Shown here: piece after piece, positions 11,734-36,687 of the stretch | Position numbering within the stretch: the first letter of the stretch is position 1 | Layout: each line of letters begins with the position of its first letter | IMG/VR virus record: IMGVR_UViG_3300044522_000174 | Span: 1 to 36,687 of that record | Strand: one strand, 5' to 3' | Origin: a virus | DNA: 36,687 nt | Notes under the pieces: generated by a model | Database searches by the model: none | Told to the model about the DNA's origin: nothing | The model's input: the letters and a program-made list of their open reading frames with translations, nothing else | Made by a program: the position numbers and the translations under genes

Positions 11734-11741
11734 CAAAGATA
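11734..11741 (-). promoter_or_regulatory. Bacteroidota-type -7 box, neck/tail operon
   Basis: The minus strand reads TATCTTTG, matching TAnnTTTG, 16 bases before the ATG of the 230-residue connector gene and directly after a terminator. The placement fits a promoter that restarts transcription for the neck and tail genes. The -33 region is occupied by the terminator, and I see no clear TTG at the standard spacing. Confidence 0.6.
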
Positions 11742-11743
11742 GC

Positions 11744-11774
11744 AAAAAAAAACACCCCTTATTTTGGAGTGTTT
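11744..11774 (-). terminator. Rho-independent terminator after the 246-aa gene
   Basis: On the minus strand AAACACTCC pairs with GGGGTGTTT (nine pairs including one G-U) around a seven-base AT loop, and the second arm runs into a long T tract. It starts eight bases after the stop of the gene at 11783 and is followed by a promoter box. This is a textbook intrinsic terminator. Confidence 0.85.
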
Positions 11775-11782
11775 AATTTCAA

Positions 11783-21927: not shown

Positions 21928-24609
21928 TTATATTCCTCCGTCTTGTATTATCCAGTTATTTGGTGCTGCTAATAATATATTTTTACCTGTTGTTCCTGCC
22001 GATGTATACTTAGCTGTTCCAAAACTTATGTTTGTTGAAAGTGGTGATGTTGTGTTTGGTTGAACACCATTTACTATCCATCCATTATATATTGCATCTA
22101 GGTTAGTTGATGAGAAGTTTAGATTTGTTTTTCCTAACATGAAATTACTGAAATTAGTTACCTTACTTACATTCCAGTTACCTATGTTTTGATTGAATGT
22201 TGTTGCGTTTTGAAACATACCGTTCATATTAATAACTTCAGAAGTATTCCAGTTATTCAATGGTTGATTAAAAGAACCAGCAGAGCTAAACAGACCTTTC
22301 ATATTTACATTAGCTCCAAGTGTAGTATTTATACTCCAATTGTTTATATCAGGACTTCCATTATTGTTAAATCCAGATGCTTGAAACATACTTTCAAATA
22401 CTGTAACCTTACTTACATTCCAGTTACCTATGTTTTGATTGAATGCTGTTGTGTTTTGGAACATACCTTGCATATTAGTAATATTTCCTGTTGTAGATCC
22501 TACTCTTTCCCAATTAGCTAATGGTTGATTAAAGGCGTCAGCATTGTTGAACATATTAGTAGTAGTAGTCACTTTGCTTATATTCCAACTACTAATATCT
22601 CTATTGAAATTAGATGCATTAGCAAACATAAGTGTTATATTAACTGATGCTGCTGTAGTATTTATAACCCAATTATTTATAGGTGCTGTGTCATCTCCAT
22701 TTGTAAAATTAGATGCTCCATTAAACATACTTGCAAATGTGGTAACCTTACTTACATCCCATGGCGTAGTTCCTGTTCCTAAGTTAGAGTTTAATCTTAT
22801 TGCACTTTGGAACATACTAGACATATTAGTCACATTACTAGTATTCCAAGGTAATTGATTCGCTACTCCAGATGCAAATCCATTATTAAATGCAGTTGCA
22901 CCTCGGAACATATAAGACATATTCCCTACTTTCGATAAAGAAGATCCTATTCTTTCCCAGTTATTAAGATTTTGATTAAATGATGCTGCACCGTCAAACA
23001 TTTCATCCATATTAGTAACTTCTGAAGTATTCCAATTTCCAATATTGCTATTAAATAATGGAGAATTAGAAAACATAGCAGTCATATTAGTCACATTACT
23101 AGTATTCCAAGACCCAATTGGTTGGTTGAAGACAGAAGCACCAGTAAACATACTATTAGTAGTAGTCACTTTGCTTATATTCCAACTACTAATATCTCTA
23201 TTGAAATTAGATGCATTAGCAAACATACCGTTCATCAATACAGATGCTGCAGTAGTATTTATACTCCAATTATTTATAGGTGCTGTATCATCTCCATTAT
23301 TAAAATTAGATGCACCGTTAAACATATTTGCAAATGTTGTCACCTTACTAACATTCCATGGTGTTGTTCCTGTACCTAGGTTGGAGTTGAATTTAGATGC
23401 GCCTTGGAACATATTATTCATCAATACTGATGTTGCAGTGGTGTTTATAGTCCAAGATAACTGGTTTGCTACTCCAGATGCAGATCCATTATTGAAATTA
23501 GATGCTCCTCGGAACATATATTCCATATTTGTTACTTTTGATAAAGAAGAACCTGACCTTTCCCAGTTACTAAGATTTTGATTAAATGATGTTGCATAGT
23601 CAAACATCTGGTTCATATTAGTCACATTACTCACATTCCAACCGCTAATATCTTGATTAAAATTACTTGATGAGTTAAATGAACCAAACATACTGGTCAT
23701 ATTAGTAACTGCTGAAGTATTCCAATTTCCAATATTGCTATTGAATAATGGACAATAAGAAAACATATAAGACATGTTAGTAACTGAACTTGTATTCCAT
23801 TCATTTATTCTACCAACAGTAGTTAGTAATGAACAATATGAAAATACATTTGATAAACTAGTCACTCCAATTAAATTAGGAATATCAGTTATTCCAGACA
23901 TAGTTACATTACTACAAGAATTAAAAGAATTTGCCCCCATTCTTAACTTACCCCAACTAGATATAGACTTTATTTTTAATCTATCATTAACATTTGTAGG
24001 ACCAAATCCAAAAGTAAAATCATCACCAAACACCCTTACTGGATACTCTCCTGATGCTGTATATGTGTGTATTCTATTTGCATAAAAATTAGCACTATTC
24101 ATGGTACTATACTGGCCATCACCCCAGTCTACCCATATTGATTTCCCAGAGGCGACAGTTATTGGTAACTGTATTTGATTAGCTGCTGATGAGCTTTGTT
24201 TTATACTTAATGATATATTTCCAACAAATGTAGATAACGGTGTAATTGATAGTGCAGCTGTAGTTATTGGAGTCATAGTTATTATAACATCAGTTCCAGC
24301 AAATAATGGAGCACTAGATACACCTCCAAAGTTTATTGTAACTGAACCTGTTCCAGTAACTGTGTACTTCATTTGATAACTCTGTCCTTGAATAGGAGTT
24401 AAACCAAATTGAAGCACAGCTGCACTTCCTGTAGTGTGATTATATCCACCATTTACAAGATTTGTTCCAGCAGGCGCCCAATTAGTTCCAGTTCCAGTTA
24501 TGTTAGCTTGTTCTGTTATACTAACTGCACTAGTTTCAGTTGTATTCCAAACAGATTGAAATAAACTTAATTTTTTTGTTCCGTATGTTTGAAACGCTAG
24601 TCTATTCAT
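21928..24609 (-). CDS. DUF285/BspA-type repeat fibre (adhesin) protein
   Basis: This 893-residue protein has three parts. An N-terminal head (1-40) begins MNRLAFQTYGTKKLSLFQSV. A beta-sandwich/PKD-like region (about 40-205, with IWVDWGDGQYSTM and HTYTASGEYPVRVFG) follows. A long array of DUF285 repeats runs from about residue 235 to 870, with the unit core NWNTSxVTNMxxMFxxAxxFN. DUF285 arrays are known from BspA-like surface proteins and Mycoplasma lipoproteins and form elongated binding surfaces. On a phage this is most likely a receptor-binding fibre. The array contains an in-frame duplication of about 199 codons. The gene is AT-rich and lies between the packaging and fibre genes. There is no signal peptide, which fits a virion protein and not a secreted adhesin. 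Confidence 0.8.
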   Translation of the reverse strand: MNRLAFQTYGTKKLSLFQSVWNTTETSAVSITEQANITGTGTNWAPAGTNLVNGGYNHTTGSAAVLQFGLTPIQGQSYQMKYTVTGTGSVTINFGGVSSAPLFAGTDVIITMTPITTAALSITPLSTFVGNISLSIKQSSSAANQIQLPITVASGKSIWVDWGDGQYSTMNSANFYANRIHTYTASGEYPVRVFGDDFTFGFGPTNVNDRLKIKSISSWGKLRMGANSFNSCSNVTMSGITDIPNLIGVTSLSNVFSYCSLLTTVGRINEWNTSSVTNMSYMFSYCPLFNSNIGNWNTSAVTNMTSMFGSFNSSSNFNQDISGWNVSNVTNMNQMFDYATSFNQNLSNWERSGSSLSKVTNMEYMFRGASNFNNGSASGVANQLSWTINTTATSVLMNNMFQGASKFNSNLGTGTTPWNVSKVTTFANMFNGASNFNNGDDTAPINNWSINTTAASVLMNGMFANASNFNRDISSWNISKVTTTNSMFTGASVFNQPIGSWNTSNVTNMTAMFSNSPLFNSNIGNWNTSEVTNMDEMFDGAASFNQNLNNWERIGSSLSKVGNMSYMFRGATAFNNGFASGVANQLPWNTSNVTNMSSMFQSAIRLNSNLGTGTTPWDVSKVTTFASMFNGASNFTNGDDTAPINNWVINTTAASVNITLMFANASNFNRDISSWNISKVTTTTNMFNNADAFNQPLANWERVGSTTGNITNMQGMFQNTTAFNQNIGNWNVSKVTVFESMFQASGFNNNGSPDINNWSINTTLGANVNMKGLFSSAGSFNQPLNNWNTSEVINMNGMFQNATTFNQNIGNWNVSKVTNFSNFMLGKTNLNFSSTNLDAIYNGWIVNGVQPNTTSPLSTNISFGTAKYTSAGTTGKNILLAAPNNWIIQDGGI
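22560..23760 (-). repeat. Tandem duplication of about 600 bp inside DUF285 gene
   Basis: Positions 22560-23156 and 23157 to about 23760 align at an offset of 597 bases, drifting to 606 after small in-frame indels. The best-preserved part is an exact 71-base repeat, 22560-22630 against 23157-23227. The rest is diverged but clearly homologous. A 597-base unit equals 199 codons, so the protein gained a whole block of DUF285 repeats. Confidence 0.8.
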
Positions 24610-31145: not shown

Positions 31146-31276
31146 CTTCCTTGTCCTTTATAGGATTTTTTATAGTTCTTGCTCTGTTTTAAGGACGAAG
31201 TCTTTGATTTAGAATGAATCCCTGGTCTATTTATATCCTTCTTAACAGACTTAATAGATACTGTTTGTTTAGCCAT
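31142..31276 (-). CDS. Small basic RPG(I/V)H..YKGQGR protein (44 aa)
   Basis: This small gene encodes 44 residues beginning MAKQTVSIKSVKKDINRPGI and ending KNYKKSYKGQGR. Lys, Ser and Arg dominate. Short proteins with RPG(V/I)H.K.K.S and a terminal Y.GQGR are common in Bacteroidota phages. No function is known, but strong basicity suggests binding to DNA or RNA. It overlaps the end of the spanin-like gene by 46 bases, and its stop overlaps the giant fibre's ATG (ATGA), so it may couple lysis-block translation to fibre synthesis. Confidence comes from the recognisable family ending. Confidence 0.75.
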   Translation of the reverse strand: MAKQTVSIKSVKKDINRPGIHSKSKTSSLKQSKNYKKSYKGQGR

Positions 31277-31719
31277 ACTACTATTATAAATGATATTATT
31301 ATTATCCAGAGAATATTGAAAGATTTTCTTTCAATCTGTTTTTTCTTTAATTTTTCAACAGTCTTCGTAGACTGTTGCTTATCTTCGATCTTAGACGCTA
31401 TCTTTTTCTCTGTATATATAGACCTATCTTTTGTCTTCTTATACGTTAAAACTACGTTCTTGTATACCTTACCGTCTATCACTATGTCCTTGCACGTGTC
31501 TAGTGGAGTTATTACAAATTCGTCTATAACTATGTCCGTCTCGTTCTTGATATCGACAACCTCTTTTGTCGCAATTTTAACCGATATTTGCGACACAGAG
31601 TCCTTCTTAACCTCGTCTATTACTACCTTTCTAGTAGAACATGATGCTAGCAACACTGCACATGTTGATAACAACACGCATATCCAGAAGTATATGTAGT
31701 TCCTGTTATGATTTGTCAT
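31231..31719 (-). CDS. Lipoprotein with C-terminal membrane anchor, u-spanin-like
   Basis: This 162-residue protein has an N-terminal signal segment (IYFWICVLLSTCAVLLASC) with a lipobox LASC at residues 24-27. The periplasm-type middle part is charged, with a coiled coil near residues 100-132, and a transmembrane helix lies close to the C-terminus (about 134-151, NILWIIIISFIIVVWL). A lipid anchor in the outer membrane at one end and an inner-membrane helix at the other is the definition of a unimolecular spanin, known from phage T1 gp11, which fuses the two membranes in the last lysis step. It directly follows the enzyme gene by an ATGA overlap. The sequence itself is not similar to T1 gp11 as far as I can see. 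The call is by topology and place. Confidence 0.7.
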   Translation of the reverse strand: MTNHNRNYIYFWICVLLSTCAVLLASCSTRKVVIDEVKKDSVSQISVKIATKEVVDIKNETDIVIDEFVITPLDTCKDIVIDGKVYKNVVLTYKKTKDRSIYTEKKIASKIEDKQQSTKTVEKLKKKQIERKSFNILWIIIISFIIVVWLNKQYLLSLLRRI

Positions 31720-33183: not shown

Positions 33184-33456
33184 TTATTTTTTAGTTCCTC
33201 TTGCTCTCTTGTCTCCAGGCATCGCGCACTTAGATCCTCGATTTGATGACGCGCTCTTCATAACTATACCACTCTTTGTGTGGCTCGCGTCTAGTCCGTC
33301 TCCGTTACCGTACGTGCCACGTTTTCTGTTAATAGCATTAAGCTCGACACGCTTCTTTACCTGATCTGGGGACTTGTTGTACTCCTTCTGGTAGTCGTTG
33401 TGCCTCTTCTTCGCCTCTGGATTGGCAGCGTAATATTTTGCTGTTCTTCCTGGCAC
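33184..33456 (-). CDS. Small basic MPGRTAKYY-family protein, GTG start
   Basis: The 90-residue product begins at a GTG (TAGTG overlap with the previous stop). I keep that start because the family's conserved opening is MPGRTAKYYAANPEAKKR. The centre reads NAINRKRGTYGNGDGLDASH and the end is basic. I have seen this family in many phages of Bacteroidota and in marine phages without a known role. Conserved Asn, His and Lys/Arg recall the surroundings of HNH nucleases, but a complete HNH motif is absent. RNA or DNA binding is plausible. Confidence 0.65.
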   Translation of the reverse strand: MPGRTAKYYAANPEAKKRHNDYQKEYNKSPDQVKKRVELNAINRKRGTYGNGDGLDASHTKSGIVMKSASSNRGSKCAMPGDKRARGTKK

Positions 33457-33560
33457 TATTTTTTCTTCTTGGCGATCATCTTCATGAAGTCAAACTTCTC
33501 TTTCTTCTGACCAGGTTTTACTTCCTTTTTAACCTCTGTTTTTGCTACTACTTTTTTCAT
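33456..33560 (-). CDS. Very small basic protein (34 aa)
   Basis: This ORF encodes 34 residues, [20 protein letters not shown] then [14 protein letters not shown]. Its ATG overlaps the stop of the 43-residue gene (ATGA) and its stop overlaps the GTG of the next gene (TAGTG). That unbroken coupling and the lack of spacer are the main support. '[12 protein letters not shown]' endings occur in small phage proteins near PLKKG-type genes. The function is unknown, and it could be a translation-coupling cistron. Confidence 0.5.
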
Positions 33561-33688
33561 TTTTTCTTTGATTTACCTGCCTTAGATAAGGCGATTGCTA
33601 TTGCTTGTTTTTGTGGCTTACCACTCTTAATCTCTGTTCTTATGTTTGCGCTAATAGTCTTAGCGCTGCTTCCCTTTTTTAATGGCAT
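33557..33688 (-). CDS. Small MPLKKG..([15 protein letters not shown]) protein (43 aa)
   Basis: This gene encodes 43 residues beginning [20 protein letters not shown], with the hallmark [20 protein letters not shown]. The family (DUF6496-like as I recognise it) is very common in phages and prophages. It has a helix ending in 'QAIAIAL.KAG' and basic ends, and its role is unknown. The downstream 34-residue gene starts inside its stop codon. The strong family hallmark makes this a real gene despite its size. Confidence 0.8.
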
Positions 33689-33692
33689 GACT

Positions 33693-33890
33693 CTATTTTT
33701 TTACGTTACCTTTTAAGTATGACATCTTTCCGTTCAATGATTTTGCTGACTCGTACTGCGCAGCCTTCTTCTTTATCTTCTTTTCCTGCTCCAGCATCTC
33801 CTTAGTGGGCTTCTTTCCAGAACCCTTGTTATCTCTGATGTTGTCCCATAAACCTCTCTTAGATGTGCTGCCGTCTTTTCGTGTCATCAT
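33693..33890 (-). CDS. Small basic [15 protein letters not shown] protein (65 aa)
   Basis: I start this 65-residue protein at the ATG-ATG pair at 33890. A longer frame back to 33944 would begin upstream of the promoter box and overlap the divergent gene. The product reads [18 protein letters not shown], then [20 protein letters not shown] and a basic end. The 'W.NIR...GSGK.PT.EML.QE..I' pattern is shared by many small phage proteins of unknown function. It heads the minus-strand block of small basic and lysis genes and is driven by the palindromic promoter. Confidence 0.7.
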
Positions 33891-33898
33891 AAATGTTT

Positions 33899-33914
33899 TA
33901 TCTTTGCAAAGATA
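33899..33914. promoter_or_regulatory. Palindromic dual -7 promoter / operator
   Basis: The sequence TATCTTTGCAAAGATA is a perfect 16-base palindrome. Each half is a TAnnTTTG -7 box, so it can drive transcription to the right (regulator gene, ATG at 33929) and to the left (small-gene block, ATG at 33890). On the left-going strand a TTG lies 22 bases upstream (33937-33939), a possible -33 element. No clear -33 is seen for the right-going strand. As a perfect inverted repeat it is also a natural binding site for a dimeric regulator. Confidence 0.7.
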
Positions 33915-33928
33915 ATAATATAAATCAA

Positions 33929-34393
33929 ATGAAATACAAGCCATACGCAGACTACCTCAAGTACTGGAGGGCAATAAAGACGCTCATTCGTCACAAGTAC
34001 AACCTAAGCAGCTCCGATATAGACATACTACTTTTCGTCTACAGCGAGCAGTACTTCCGTCACAAGCAGTTCTGGGAGTTCGAGTCTGGACTCACCTGGG
34101 AGAAGGACCGATTCAAGAGAATGATCGCTGACGGCTGGATCACACTATGGAGGCCGAACAAGAATGGTGAGGCTGCCCTTTATGAGGCCTCCTACAAGAC
34201 TCGCAGGGTTATAACCGATATATACGAGAAGATCGAGCTCAAGGTTCACGTATCAGAGAACCCTACATCTAACCCTCTGTTCAAAAAGGACGCGTCATAT
34301 AGTGAGAGAGCCTCCAGGCCCATTATTCGTAAGATGAATCGTACGCGTAAGGAGCTCAAGAGGCTTAGGGATATCGAGGATCAGAAGATCTAG
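33929..34393 (+). CDS. Winged-helix (MarR-like) regulator, only plus-strand gene
   Basis: I choose the ATG at 33929, since an in-frame ATG at 33893 lies before the promoter box. The 154-residue protein fits a winged helix-turn-helix: helices LKYWRAIKTLIRHKYNLS and SDIDILLFVYSEQYFRHK, a probable recognition helix TWEKDRFKRMIADGWITLWR, a wing with NKNGEAALYEAS, and further helices (YKTRRVITDIYEKIEL). The basic tail is KKDASYSERASRPIIRKMNR onwards. MarR-like proteins bind palindromes as dimers, and a perfect 16-base palindrome lies in its own promoter. It is convergent with groES; the two stop codons share CTAG at 34390-34393. It may control itself and the neighbouring small-gene block. No ligand can be predicted. 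Confidence 0.75.
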   Translation: MKYKPYADYLKYWRAIKTLIRHKYNLSSSDIDILLFVYSEQYFRHKQFWEFESGLTWEKDRFKRMIADGWITLWRPNKNGEAALYEASYKTRRVITDIYEKIELKVHVSENPTSNPLFKKDASYSERASRPIIRKMNRTRKELKRLRDIEDQKI

Positions 34394-34647
34394 AGGACCA
34401 CGACTATGTCTCTCTCCAGGATCACCGTATACTTGATGTCGTTTACCAGCATCGTGTATCCAGCGTTCTTATCGTAGTAGATTATGTCTCCCTCCTTCAC
34501 GCAGTCCACATTAGTTCCAGGCTTCACAACCTCTCCCTTCTTGTACCTGAACTGGTCGGTCTCGTTTCCAGTGAGCAGCAGACCCGACTGGGTCCTGATC
34601 TGCTCTTCTATTGTATTGATTACTAGGTATTTATTGATTGGTTGCAT
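34390..34647 (-). CDS. groES: Phage co-chaperonin GroES
   Basis: This 85-residue protein is slightly shorter than bacterial GroES (about 97). It has the family order: a beta start (MQPINKYLVINTIEEQ), a mobile loop with SGLLLTGNETDQF, in which LLL stands for the GroEL-binding Ile-Val-Leu, then KKGEVVKPG, the CVKEGDIIYYDKNAG barrel strand pair, MLVNDIKYTVI and a closing DIVVVL. The phage's own GroEL is encoded just upstream, and the TAATG overlap couples them. The order groEL-groES is reversed from the usual bacterial groES-groEL. It caps the GroEL chamber during folding of client proteins, probably phage capsid or tail proteins. It resembles other phage-encoded GroES more in size than host types. 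Confidence 0.85.
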   Translation of the reverse strand: MQPINKYLVINTIEEQIRTQSGLLLTGNETDQFRYKKGEVVKPGTNVDCVKEGDIIYYDKNAGYTMLVNDIKYTVILERDIVVVL

Positions 34648-36254
34648 TATGCTCGTGTCATTGTTATTATTGCGTTAGTACTAAGTATTGTTGTGGCTAC
34701 ACTGACCGCGTTCTTAAGCGCGTTCTTCGTCACCTTCAGTGGGTCGATTATACCCATCTCGTACATGTCACCGTACATGTCGTTCTTCACGTCGTACCCA
34801 GTGTTGGCATCTGATGCGCACTGCTCCATGATGTCGTAACCGTCGTTACCTGCGTTCTCGTGTATCTGCAGCAGCGGAGCCTGAATCGCCCTTGCCATGA
34901 TCTGCATCGCCACGTACTTCTCTGGGCTGATGTCTTCTATCATGTCATCCGCATCTGCGATGATCCTGTATGACTCGTTGAACAAGGCCAACCCCCCTCC
35001 TGGAAGGATTCCCTCTTCTAGTGCTGATCTAACCGCGCAGACTGCGTCGTCTACCCTGTCCTTTCTCTCCTTCTGCTCTAGGTCGGAGTTACCTCCCACG
35101 TATATAACAGCGATTCCACCTGTCAGGCTGGCTATCCTGTGCTTGATGAACTCCTTGTCGTTCTTCTTCTGTGCAGCGTCATGAGCTAACCACAACTGAG
35201 CAACCCTGTCGGTTACCTCCTTATCCTTGCTCGCTGGCTTGATTATAGAAGACGTGTCTCTACCTATGATGATCCTGTCTGCCTTGCCCAGGTCCTCTAT
35301 TGTTATAAGACTCAAGTCATCACCTGTACTCTCTGAGAAGTACTTTGCTCCCAATGATATAGCAATGTCGCTCATCAGTTCGTTCATCTTGTACCCGAAC
35401 TCTGGCGGTGCTATGTTACAGAACTTCAGCTTGTTTTTCACCACGTTAACTGCCAACGTGTTGATCACGTTCTGGTTGCACGGCCCGATAATGAGCAGCT
35501 TCTTGTTCTCCTGTATCACCGTCTTCAGCACTCCTTCTATAGACAGGATGTTGGATATCTCCTGGTCTGTAACCAACACCAGAACATCGTCCATGATGCA
35601 CTCGTCGTTCTTGAAGTCGTTCACGAACATGTTAGACGTGTAGCCCCTTCCAATCTTGATACCGTTTGTGAACTCTGAGTACGTCTCTGCCGTCTGTGAG
35701 TTCTCGATTGTAACAATCCCATTCTTACCAACCTTTGTGTAAGCACTCGATATTATCTTACCGATCTCGTTATCGTTGTTGGCCGAGATTGATGCCACGT
35801 TGTGAAGTGTCTTTCCACTCACCTTCTTGGATGATCTCTCCAGGCTGTGGATGATGCCATTGGCAACACTGTTTATGTTCTTGATCACCTCTGTCACGTT
35901 GTGCTTCTCGTTCAACAGGTCCTGTCCCTGTCTCACGATGGCCTCCGTCAGAACGATTGCCGTTGTTGTTCCGTCACCAGCACTGGTGGCTGTACGGTCT
36001 GCTGCCTCTTTTAAAATTTTTACAGCTAGATTCTCTACTGGATCTAATAAGAATATAGATTTAGCTACTGTTATCCCATCTTTCGTCACTGTGATTCCAT
36101 GAGTATGATTAGGACTCTCTATAAGTACTGTTCGGCCTCTTGGACCAAGAGTACTCTTAACTGCCTTTGACAAAATTGTAATACCATTAATTAACTTGTC
36201 TCTTCCTTCCTTATCAAATAATATGTCCTTAGGACTATATCCGAATTCTTCCAT
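34647..36254 (-). CDS. groEL: Phage chaperonin GroEL
   Basis: The 535-residue protein is nearly full length (548 in E. coli). The ATP site is intact: STLGPRGRTVLI (34-45), GDGTTT (93-98, Asp94 corresponding to the essential Asp87), RVDDAVCAVRSALEEG (the Asp398 region), ILPGGGLAL and GIIDPLKV (Asp495 region). The C-terminus ends NAIITMTRA and has no Gly-Gly-Met tail. The middle domain is shorter in places, with unusual Cys residues (NDECIMDD, IGPCNQNV). It likely forms a folding ring for phage proteins such as the capsid. Chaperonins are known in a few large phages but are not common. Base composition changes sharply inside the gene near 36000. A tandem pair of TATATTTG boxes lies upstream. 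Confidence 0.92.
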   Translation of the reverse strand: MEEFGYSPKDILFDKEGRDKLINGITILSKAVKSTLGPRGRTVLIESPNHTHGITVTKDGITVAKSIFLLDPVENLAVKILKEAADRTATSAGDGTTTAIVLTEAIVRQGQDLLNEKHNVTEVIKNINSVANGIIHSLERSSKKVSGKTLHNVASISANNDNEIGKIISSAYTKVGKNGIVTIENSQTAETYSEFTNGIKIGRGYTSNMFVNDFKNDECIMDDVLVLVTDQEISNILSIEGVLKTVIQENKKLLIIGPCNQNVINTLAVNVVKNKLKFCNIAPPEFGYKMNELMSDIAISLGAKYFSESTGDDLSLITIEDLGKADRIIIGRDTSSIIKPASKDKEVTDRVAQLWLAHDAAQKKNDKEFIKHRIASLTGGIAVIYVGGNSDLEQKERKDRVDDAVCAVRSALEEGILPGGGLALFNESYRIIADADDMIEDISPEKYVAMQIMARAIQAPLLQIHENAGNDGYDIMEQCASDANTGYDVKNDMYGDMYEMGIIDPLKVTKNALKNAVSVATTILSTNAIITMTRA

Positions 36255-36283: not shown

Positions 36284-36302
36284 CAAATATACAACAAATA
36301 TA
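36284..36302 (-). promoter_or_regulatory. Tandem TATATTTG -7 boxes before groEL
   Basis: The minus strand has TATATTTG at 36295-36302 and again at 36284-36291, both matching TAnnTTTG and separated by three bases. The groEL ATG lies about 30 bases downstream of the second. The upstream copy reaches the HNH gene's stop. No clear -33 TTG is seen at normal spacing for either box. Confidence 0.5.
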
Positions 36303-36687
36303 TTAATATTTATTACTCTTTTTTAAGTTGTCAATAGCCCATAGAGGTTGGAAGTTTGTATAATGGTTTAATTTTATTACCTCTTCTTCTGTCTTGGCGC
36401 TTGATACTGGTATGATGTGGTCTAGATGCCATTCTCCGTGATTACCTATTGTCATTCCATCTGTGAATTTATTTTCTATATATATTATAAATTCTTTTAC
36501 AGTGCAACAAAGTATCTCCTCTGTCTTAGCTCCTTTTTTAAATTGATTATCTCCTCTTTTAAAAGCACTTCTCACACAAGCTCTTACACTACCCCTTAAC
36601 TTAAATAGATCATCTGTATTTTTTCTTTCTTTATGATATTTTTTATTGTATTCATATAAAGAACTTTTATTAACTTCCCTATATTCT
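36303..36687 (-). CDS. HNH homing-type endonuclease, N-terminus cut by window edge
   Basis: The frame is open from the right edge, giving 127 visible residues. I read it as one partial gene, not as one starting at the internal GTG at 36575, because upstream codons are family-like (KYHKERKNTDDLFKLRGSVR). The C-terminal half holds the HNH site: GEWHLDHIIPVSS, then NHYTNFQPLWAIDNLKKSNK. The N-terminal 'LF.LR..VR...R.AFKRG' and TEEILCCTVKEFIIYIENKF are typical of free-standing phage HNH nucleases, which cut DNA and often spread as selfish elements, though some help packaging. It is upstream of groEL, from which it is separated by the tandem promoter boxes. Confidence 0.85.
   Translation of the reverse strand, partial: EYREVNKSSLYEYNKKYHKERKNTDDLFKLRGSVRACVRSAFKRGDNQFKKGAKTEEILCCTVKEFIIYIENKFTDGMTIGNHGEWHLDHIIPVSSAKTEEEVIKLNHYTNFQPLWAIDNLKKSNKY

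Follow-up and report, generated by a model that had tools for sequence, protein, structure and literature searches.

Introduction

In divergent MarR-family autoregulatory loci, a protein with a winged-helix MarR-like fold is encoded divergently from its neighboring gene and a palindrome lies in the gap between the two. To our knowledge, work on bidirectional promoters has dealt with E. coli and its relatives and hardly with other bacteria. E. coli bidirectional promoters with shared or overlapping -10 elements use one short pseudo-symmetric element for both strands, with transcription starts within or beside that element (Warman et al. 2021; Warman et al. 2026, PMC12825309). Polymerases do not occupy both sides simultaneously, and when one side is strongly activated, the opposite one is repressed (PMC12825309). 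At PacrA/acrR of E. coli the regulator gene is divergent from its target operon across a bidirectional promoter, and repression of both RNAs by the TetR-family protein AcrR has been shown (PMC12825309).

We analyzed a stretch of viral DNA of 36,687 nt, the record IMGVR_UViG_3300044522_000174, here called the window, which carries a locus comparable to these systems. As in the E. coli promoters, a short symmetric element would serve both strands with starts predicted within or beside it, and polymerases would exclude each other. In contrast to the sigma-70 -10 element of E. coli, which need not be conserved together with one gene, the phage site consists of Bacteroidota TAnnTTTG boxes placed head-on with a spacer of 0-8 bp and is tied to one regulator family across many phages. 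The divergent arrangement of regulator gene and putative target is shared with PacrA/acrR, whereas binding and regulation by the phage protein are inferred. The locus also shares the fold, the divergent gene and the palindrome in the gap with divergent MarR loci; it differs from them in a regulator that is very distant in sequence and lacks a Pfam MarR match, in which no ligand site was identified, and in a half-site spacing that is not fixed within the family. Both bidirectional promoters and regulators divergent from their targets are already known in kind. A Bacteroidota -7 bidirectional promoter that is conserved with a phage regulator family and forms a spacing series was not found in the searched literature, outside of which most subscription papers lie.

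Results

The palindrome and its gene surroundings

The sequence TATCTTTGCAAAGATA is its own reverse complement and is present in a single copy in the window. The first-pass annotation had described a self-complementary 16-mer that supplies one TAnnTTTG box for each strand and separates a plus-strand regulator from a leftward gene block; all of this holds, and perfect symmetry even extends to 18 bp (Table 1). The palindrome lies in the short gap between the minus-strand ORF starting at 33890 and the regulator starting at 33929, with 8 nt to the left and 14 nt to the right of the 16-mer. TATCTTTG is present on both strands, separated from an ATG by 16 nt in one direction and by 22 nt in the other, in agreement with a -7 element of sigma-ABfr, the housekeeping sigma factor of Bacteroidota, for which the consensus TAnnTTTG has been reported (PMC7366714). 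No other head-on pair of such boxes is found in the window. At other likely promoters of the phage, boxes of this kind lie at a similar distance from the ATG. Symmetry in itself was rejected as evidence, since 47% of dinucleotide shuffles of the 36.7-kb window also hold a perfect palindrome of at least 16 bp.

Table 1. Features at and around the palindrome in the window.
Feature	Position	Strand	Remarks
Perfect 18-bp palindrome TTATCTTTGCAAAGATAA	33898-33915	none	conserved 16-bp core 33899-33914
TATCTTTG, predicted -7 element of the rightward (regulator) promoter	33899-33906	+	sigma-ABfr consensus TAnnTTTG
TATCTTTG, predicted -7 element of the leftward promoter	33907-33914	-	sigma-ABfr consensus TAnnTTTG; stricter box of the family
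MarR-fold DNA-binding regulator, 154 aa	33929-34393	+	phrog_17028 (unknown function); no Pfam match
First leftward gene, small basic 65-aa protein	33693-33890	-	unrelated genes take its place elsewhere in the phage family
Second small leftward gene	33557-33688	-	phrog_2423
Small leftward gene	33184-33456	-	phrog_6437; many phages have a relative next to the site, on one side or the other
GroES co-chaperonin	34390-34647	-	tail-to-tail with the regulator, 4-nt overlap
GroEL chaperonin	34647-36254	-	adjoins GroES

The regulator is the only sizeable, real-looking plus-strand gene. Portal, terminase and virion genes follow further to the left on the same strand as the small leftward genes, for which a proposed role in lysis found no confirmation in family searches. 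The closest annotated genome, MW202828, is circular, podovirus-like and 60.9 kb long, and its portal shares 71% identity with that of the phage. Identity to the portals of Maribacter phage Panino and Flavobacterium phage elemo is about 47-51%; the phage therefore belongs among the flavobacterial podovirus-like phages. Of 65 related clusters, 60 have GroES downstream of their regulator.

Some further elements were observed elsewhere in the window. Upstream of GroEL two tandem TATATTTG boxes are located on the minus strand at 36284-36302, 11 bp apart, and a TTGACA starts nearby at 36334. At 11734-11775 TATCTTTG directly follows a stem-like sequence and a T run on the minus strand (ACACTCC...GGGGTGTTTTTTTTT, read leftward), which may represent a terminator and a subsequent promoter within the structural block. 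The product of 21928-24609 is 893 aa long and contains many DUF285 repeats (9 stretches, E 7e-175). The 162-aa protein encoded at 31231-31719 begins with a lipoprotein-like sequence and has a hydrophobic stretch at its C-terminal end, and family searches gave no confident function for it.

Conservation of the site with the regulator

A blind scan for the exact 16-mer in 2.9 million viral contigs, which in IMG/VR are often fragments, returned 114 contigs. Among the 145 neighboring ORFs starting within 80 nt of the 16-mer, gene calls in the relatives being simple ORFs, 81 are regulator homologues as recognized by a one-pass HMM built from the window protein alone, with their ATG at 12-15 nt from the palindrome. 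These homologues fall into 21 clusters at less than 85% identity, the most divergent being 32% identical to the window protein, while the 16-bp core is identical across all 81 regulator-linked sites. The genes on the leftward side vary and comprise at least four kinds, the left sequence diverging just beside the site: the leftward gene is exchanged while the palindrome stays. The suggestion that the same palindrome would be found at the same locus in related phages is thereby borne out very widely. In two further phages, L070 and L106, a small gene on the same strand is located between the palindrome and the regulator, whose homology was confirmed in both records; there the same perfect palindrome (L070:7244-7259 and L106:624-639) is located between a holin-like membrane gene and this small gene. 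When genome contigs were scanned for the palindrome, the titles among the matches listed were mostly from Bacteroidota, as judged by eye. A regulon sharing the same palindrome was considered and rejected, as eight long relatives hold one copy per genome even at one mismatch.

Position and conservation of the palindrome are, to judge from these comparisons, far beyond chance. The frequency of such palindromes in shuffled windows would be compatible with a chance occurrence without function, but dozens of diverged phages keep the palindrome at this locus although its flanks have been exchanged, which contradicts such an origin and makes it hardly credible.

We also approached conservation from the protein side. 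Protein searches yielded 66 regulator clusters (<85% identity), a sample that leans to palindrome-bearing relatives because one search profile was built from palindrome-bearing loci. The region upstream of the regulator was searched with the loose pattern TAnnTTT[G/A]-N0-9-[C/T]AAAnnTA. A loose head-on pair is present in 57 of the 66 clusters (shuffles: mean 0.56, maximum 4) and a strict pair in 42 (shuffles: 0.085). Within the same phage loci, 69 of 75 regulator gaps hold the loose pair compared to 7 of 47 other divergent gaps; for the strict pair the numbers are 49 of 75 and 2 of 47, both of the latter having been fetched by the palindrome itself. As a further control, 2 of 45 divergent gaps of two Bacteroidales chromosomes hold the pair. 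The leftward box reads TTTG in all 57 clusters. The regulator-side box reads TTTG in 42 and the off-consensus TTTA in 15, so that of the two predicted promoters the leftward one appears to be under the stronger constraint. Could the site be a promoter of the regulator only, or of the leftward genes only, the other half being chance or leader sequence? The off-consensus regulator-side boxes would fit, as would the presence of TTTGCAAA at 5 of 94 ordinary boxes. We regard this as unlikely, however: both boxes recur in most clusters at variable spacing, whereas a second, opposing box accompanies only 2 of 94 ordinary -7 boxes.

The pair is absent in 9 of the 66 clusters, including that of MW202828. 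Upstream of the MW202828 regulator (L033:5880-5930, approximate) the sequence GTCACAAAAATACTTAAATTTGTGAC forms an inverted repeat with two -7-like boxes tail-to-tail, and a search starting from this regulator returned one partial relative only. The regulator homologue of Cellulophaga phage phi38:1 is not divergent, and transcript data of this phage would therefore not bear on the site. In phi13:2 the homologue is divergent, but the boxes lie apart. The regulator tree, which is based on few columns and has many unresolved forks, serves for description only.

The regulator protein

In sequence searches the regulator showed no Pfam family at E 0.1 and did not match a curated MarR model; its best family match is phrog_17028 (E 5e-11). 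The label of a MarR family member by sequence is unjustified. The AlphaFold model, computed with 21 homologues, has a pLDDT of 88.8 and the order helix-helix-strand-helix-helix-wing. Foldseek ranks MarR proteins first (probability 1.0, E about 5e-3, TM about 0.45), and VIA-align superimposes the model on Tm0710 (2a61) over 103 residues with Z 10.9 and rmsd 3.3. The earlier designation as MarR-like is thus correct with regard to the fold: the model indicates a MarR-like winged-helix protein, which justifies the term MarR-fold. Among the conserved residues of the predicted recognition helix and wing, R61, W74 and R75 are invariant. Compared with MarR autoregulators the palindrome is rightly placed, yet the half-site spacing varies across the family, and binding is putative.

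Promoter pair or operator

Over the 57 clusters with a pair, spacers of 0, 1, 2, 3 and 4 bp were counted 17, 3, 8, 9 and 4 times, and spacers of 5, 6, 7 and 8 bp 9, 4, 1 and 2 times. Since the nn bases of the -7 box are free, a protein reading the dyad should make them covary. At spacers above 0 we counted 8 matches compared to 6.8 expected (p 0.35), and at spacer 0 matches in 13 of 17 clusters compared to 9.6 expected (p 0.048), both p values being optimistic as clusters are not independent. TC occupies the nn position in 26% of ordinary boxes but in 44% of the halves of family sites. Because of the variable spacing and the lack of nn covariation above spacer 0, what is conserved appears to be two overlapping sigma-ABfr -7 elements that make up a bidirectional promoter. 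For the same reasons, a rigid operator common to the entire family is not supported. An added symmetric constraint in the spacer-0 lineages is possible.

The spacing series also bears on whether the palindrome works as RNA, be it a hairpin, a terminator or a structure in the leader, or serves as a site of recombination. A short hairpin could form, and the frequent exchange of the leftward gene just beside the palindrome would suit recombination. On the other hand, no terminator-like site was found at the palindrome on either strand, pairing of the arms is lost above spacer 0, and the half-site is common to ordinary promoters, leaving a terminator or RNA hairpin without support and such functions in general very improbable.

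The -33 motif (TTG/TTTG) showed no clear enrichment upstream of either box at any distance over the 57 clusters; it was likewise not found in F. johnsoniae (PMC7366714). Together with the TTTA boxes on the regulator side and the clusters without a pair, this counts against a bidirectional promoter, and the fact that deep lineages conserve the full 16 bp, TC bases included, is slightly more than two -7 boxes need. The reading of the palindrome as a promoter is nevertheless well supported by the box pair, its position and its conservation. We consider it likely that the palindrome is a bidirectional promoter of Bacteroidota type, composed of two opposed sigma-ABfr -7 elements that meet head-on with no spacer and whose directions compete.

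Discussion

With the Bacteroidota -7 element centered about 7 nt before the start (PMC7366714), rightward transcription is predicted to begin near 33910-33912 and leftward transcription near 33901-33903. The right half would drive the leftward late block and the left half the MarR-fold regulator. The boxes had been termed back-to-back, which is not quite right: they face each other, and each predicted start sits inside the opposite box, so two polymerases could not occupy the site together and the directions would compete. At the level of sequence, the abutting opposed elements correspond to those of a bidirectional promoter; that both boxes are active and that competition is relevant we infer. 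Exclusion of polymerases on overlapping -7 boxes would couple the two directions without an operator. The regulator may act back on the promoter, probably as an autoregulator, and perhaps binds the dyad itself in spacer-0 lineages. GroES and GroEL are transcribed leftward in the direction of the site, and the intervening stretch showed no terminator-like sequence on their strand, so antisense read-through over the regulator may be a further input.

The palindrome might at the same time be the operator of the regulator, a dimer on the dyad shutting or setting both directions. Several observations are consistent with this: the MarR-like fold with its conserved recognition-helix and wing residues, the single site per genome in long relatives, perfect symmetry retained with regulators of low identity, the excess of nn matches at spacer 0, the low frequency of TC in ordinary boxes, and the precedent of an autorepressor at a bidirectional promoter in PacrA/acrR. 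Against it stand half-sites up to 8 bp apart that show no covariation once separated, and decaying spacer-0 sites that lose the TTTG of the regulator side only, which a symmetric operator would not predict. Such a double role is tentative, and the proposal that one bound dimer switches both directions at once is possible only. It is doubtful, though conceivable, that the regulator reads the host core promoter element, its half-site being the -7 box (TTTG/CAAA), which it would bind alone or as a pair of variable spacing, and decides which polymerase wins. If this were true, the protein could control the host-type promoters of the phage generally, and the site would be a self-setting switch.

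The putative bidirectional promoter comes as a natural series of sites with spacers of 0-8 bp, strong and weak boxes, and with or without symmetry, in which polymerase competition versus a bound regulator is directly testable. Since the site stays together with the regulator gene and the GroES/GroEL block across very diverged phages, it is likely to be a control point of the infection programme.
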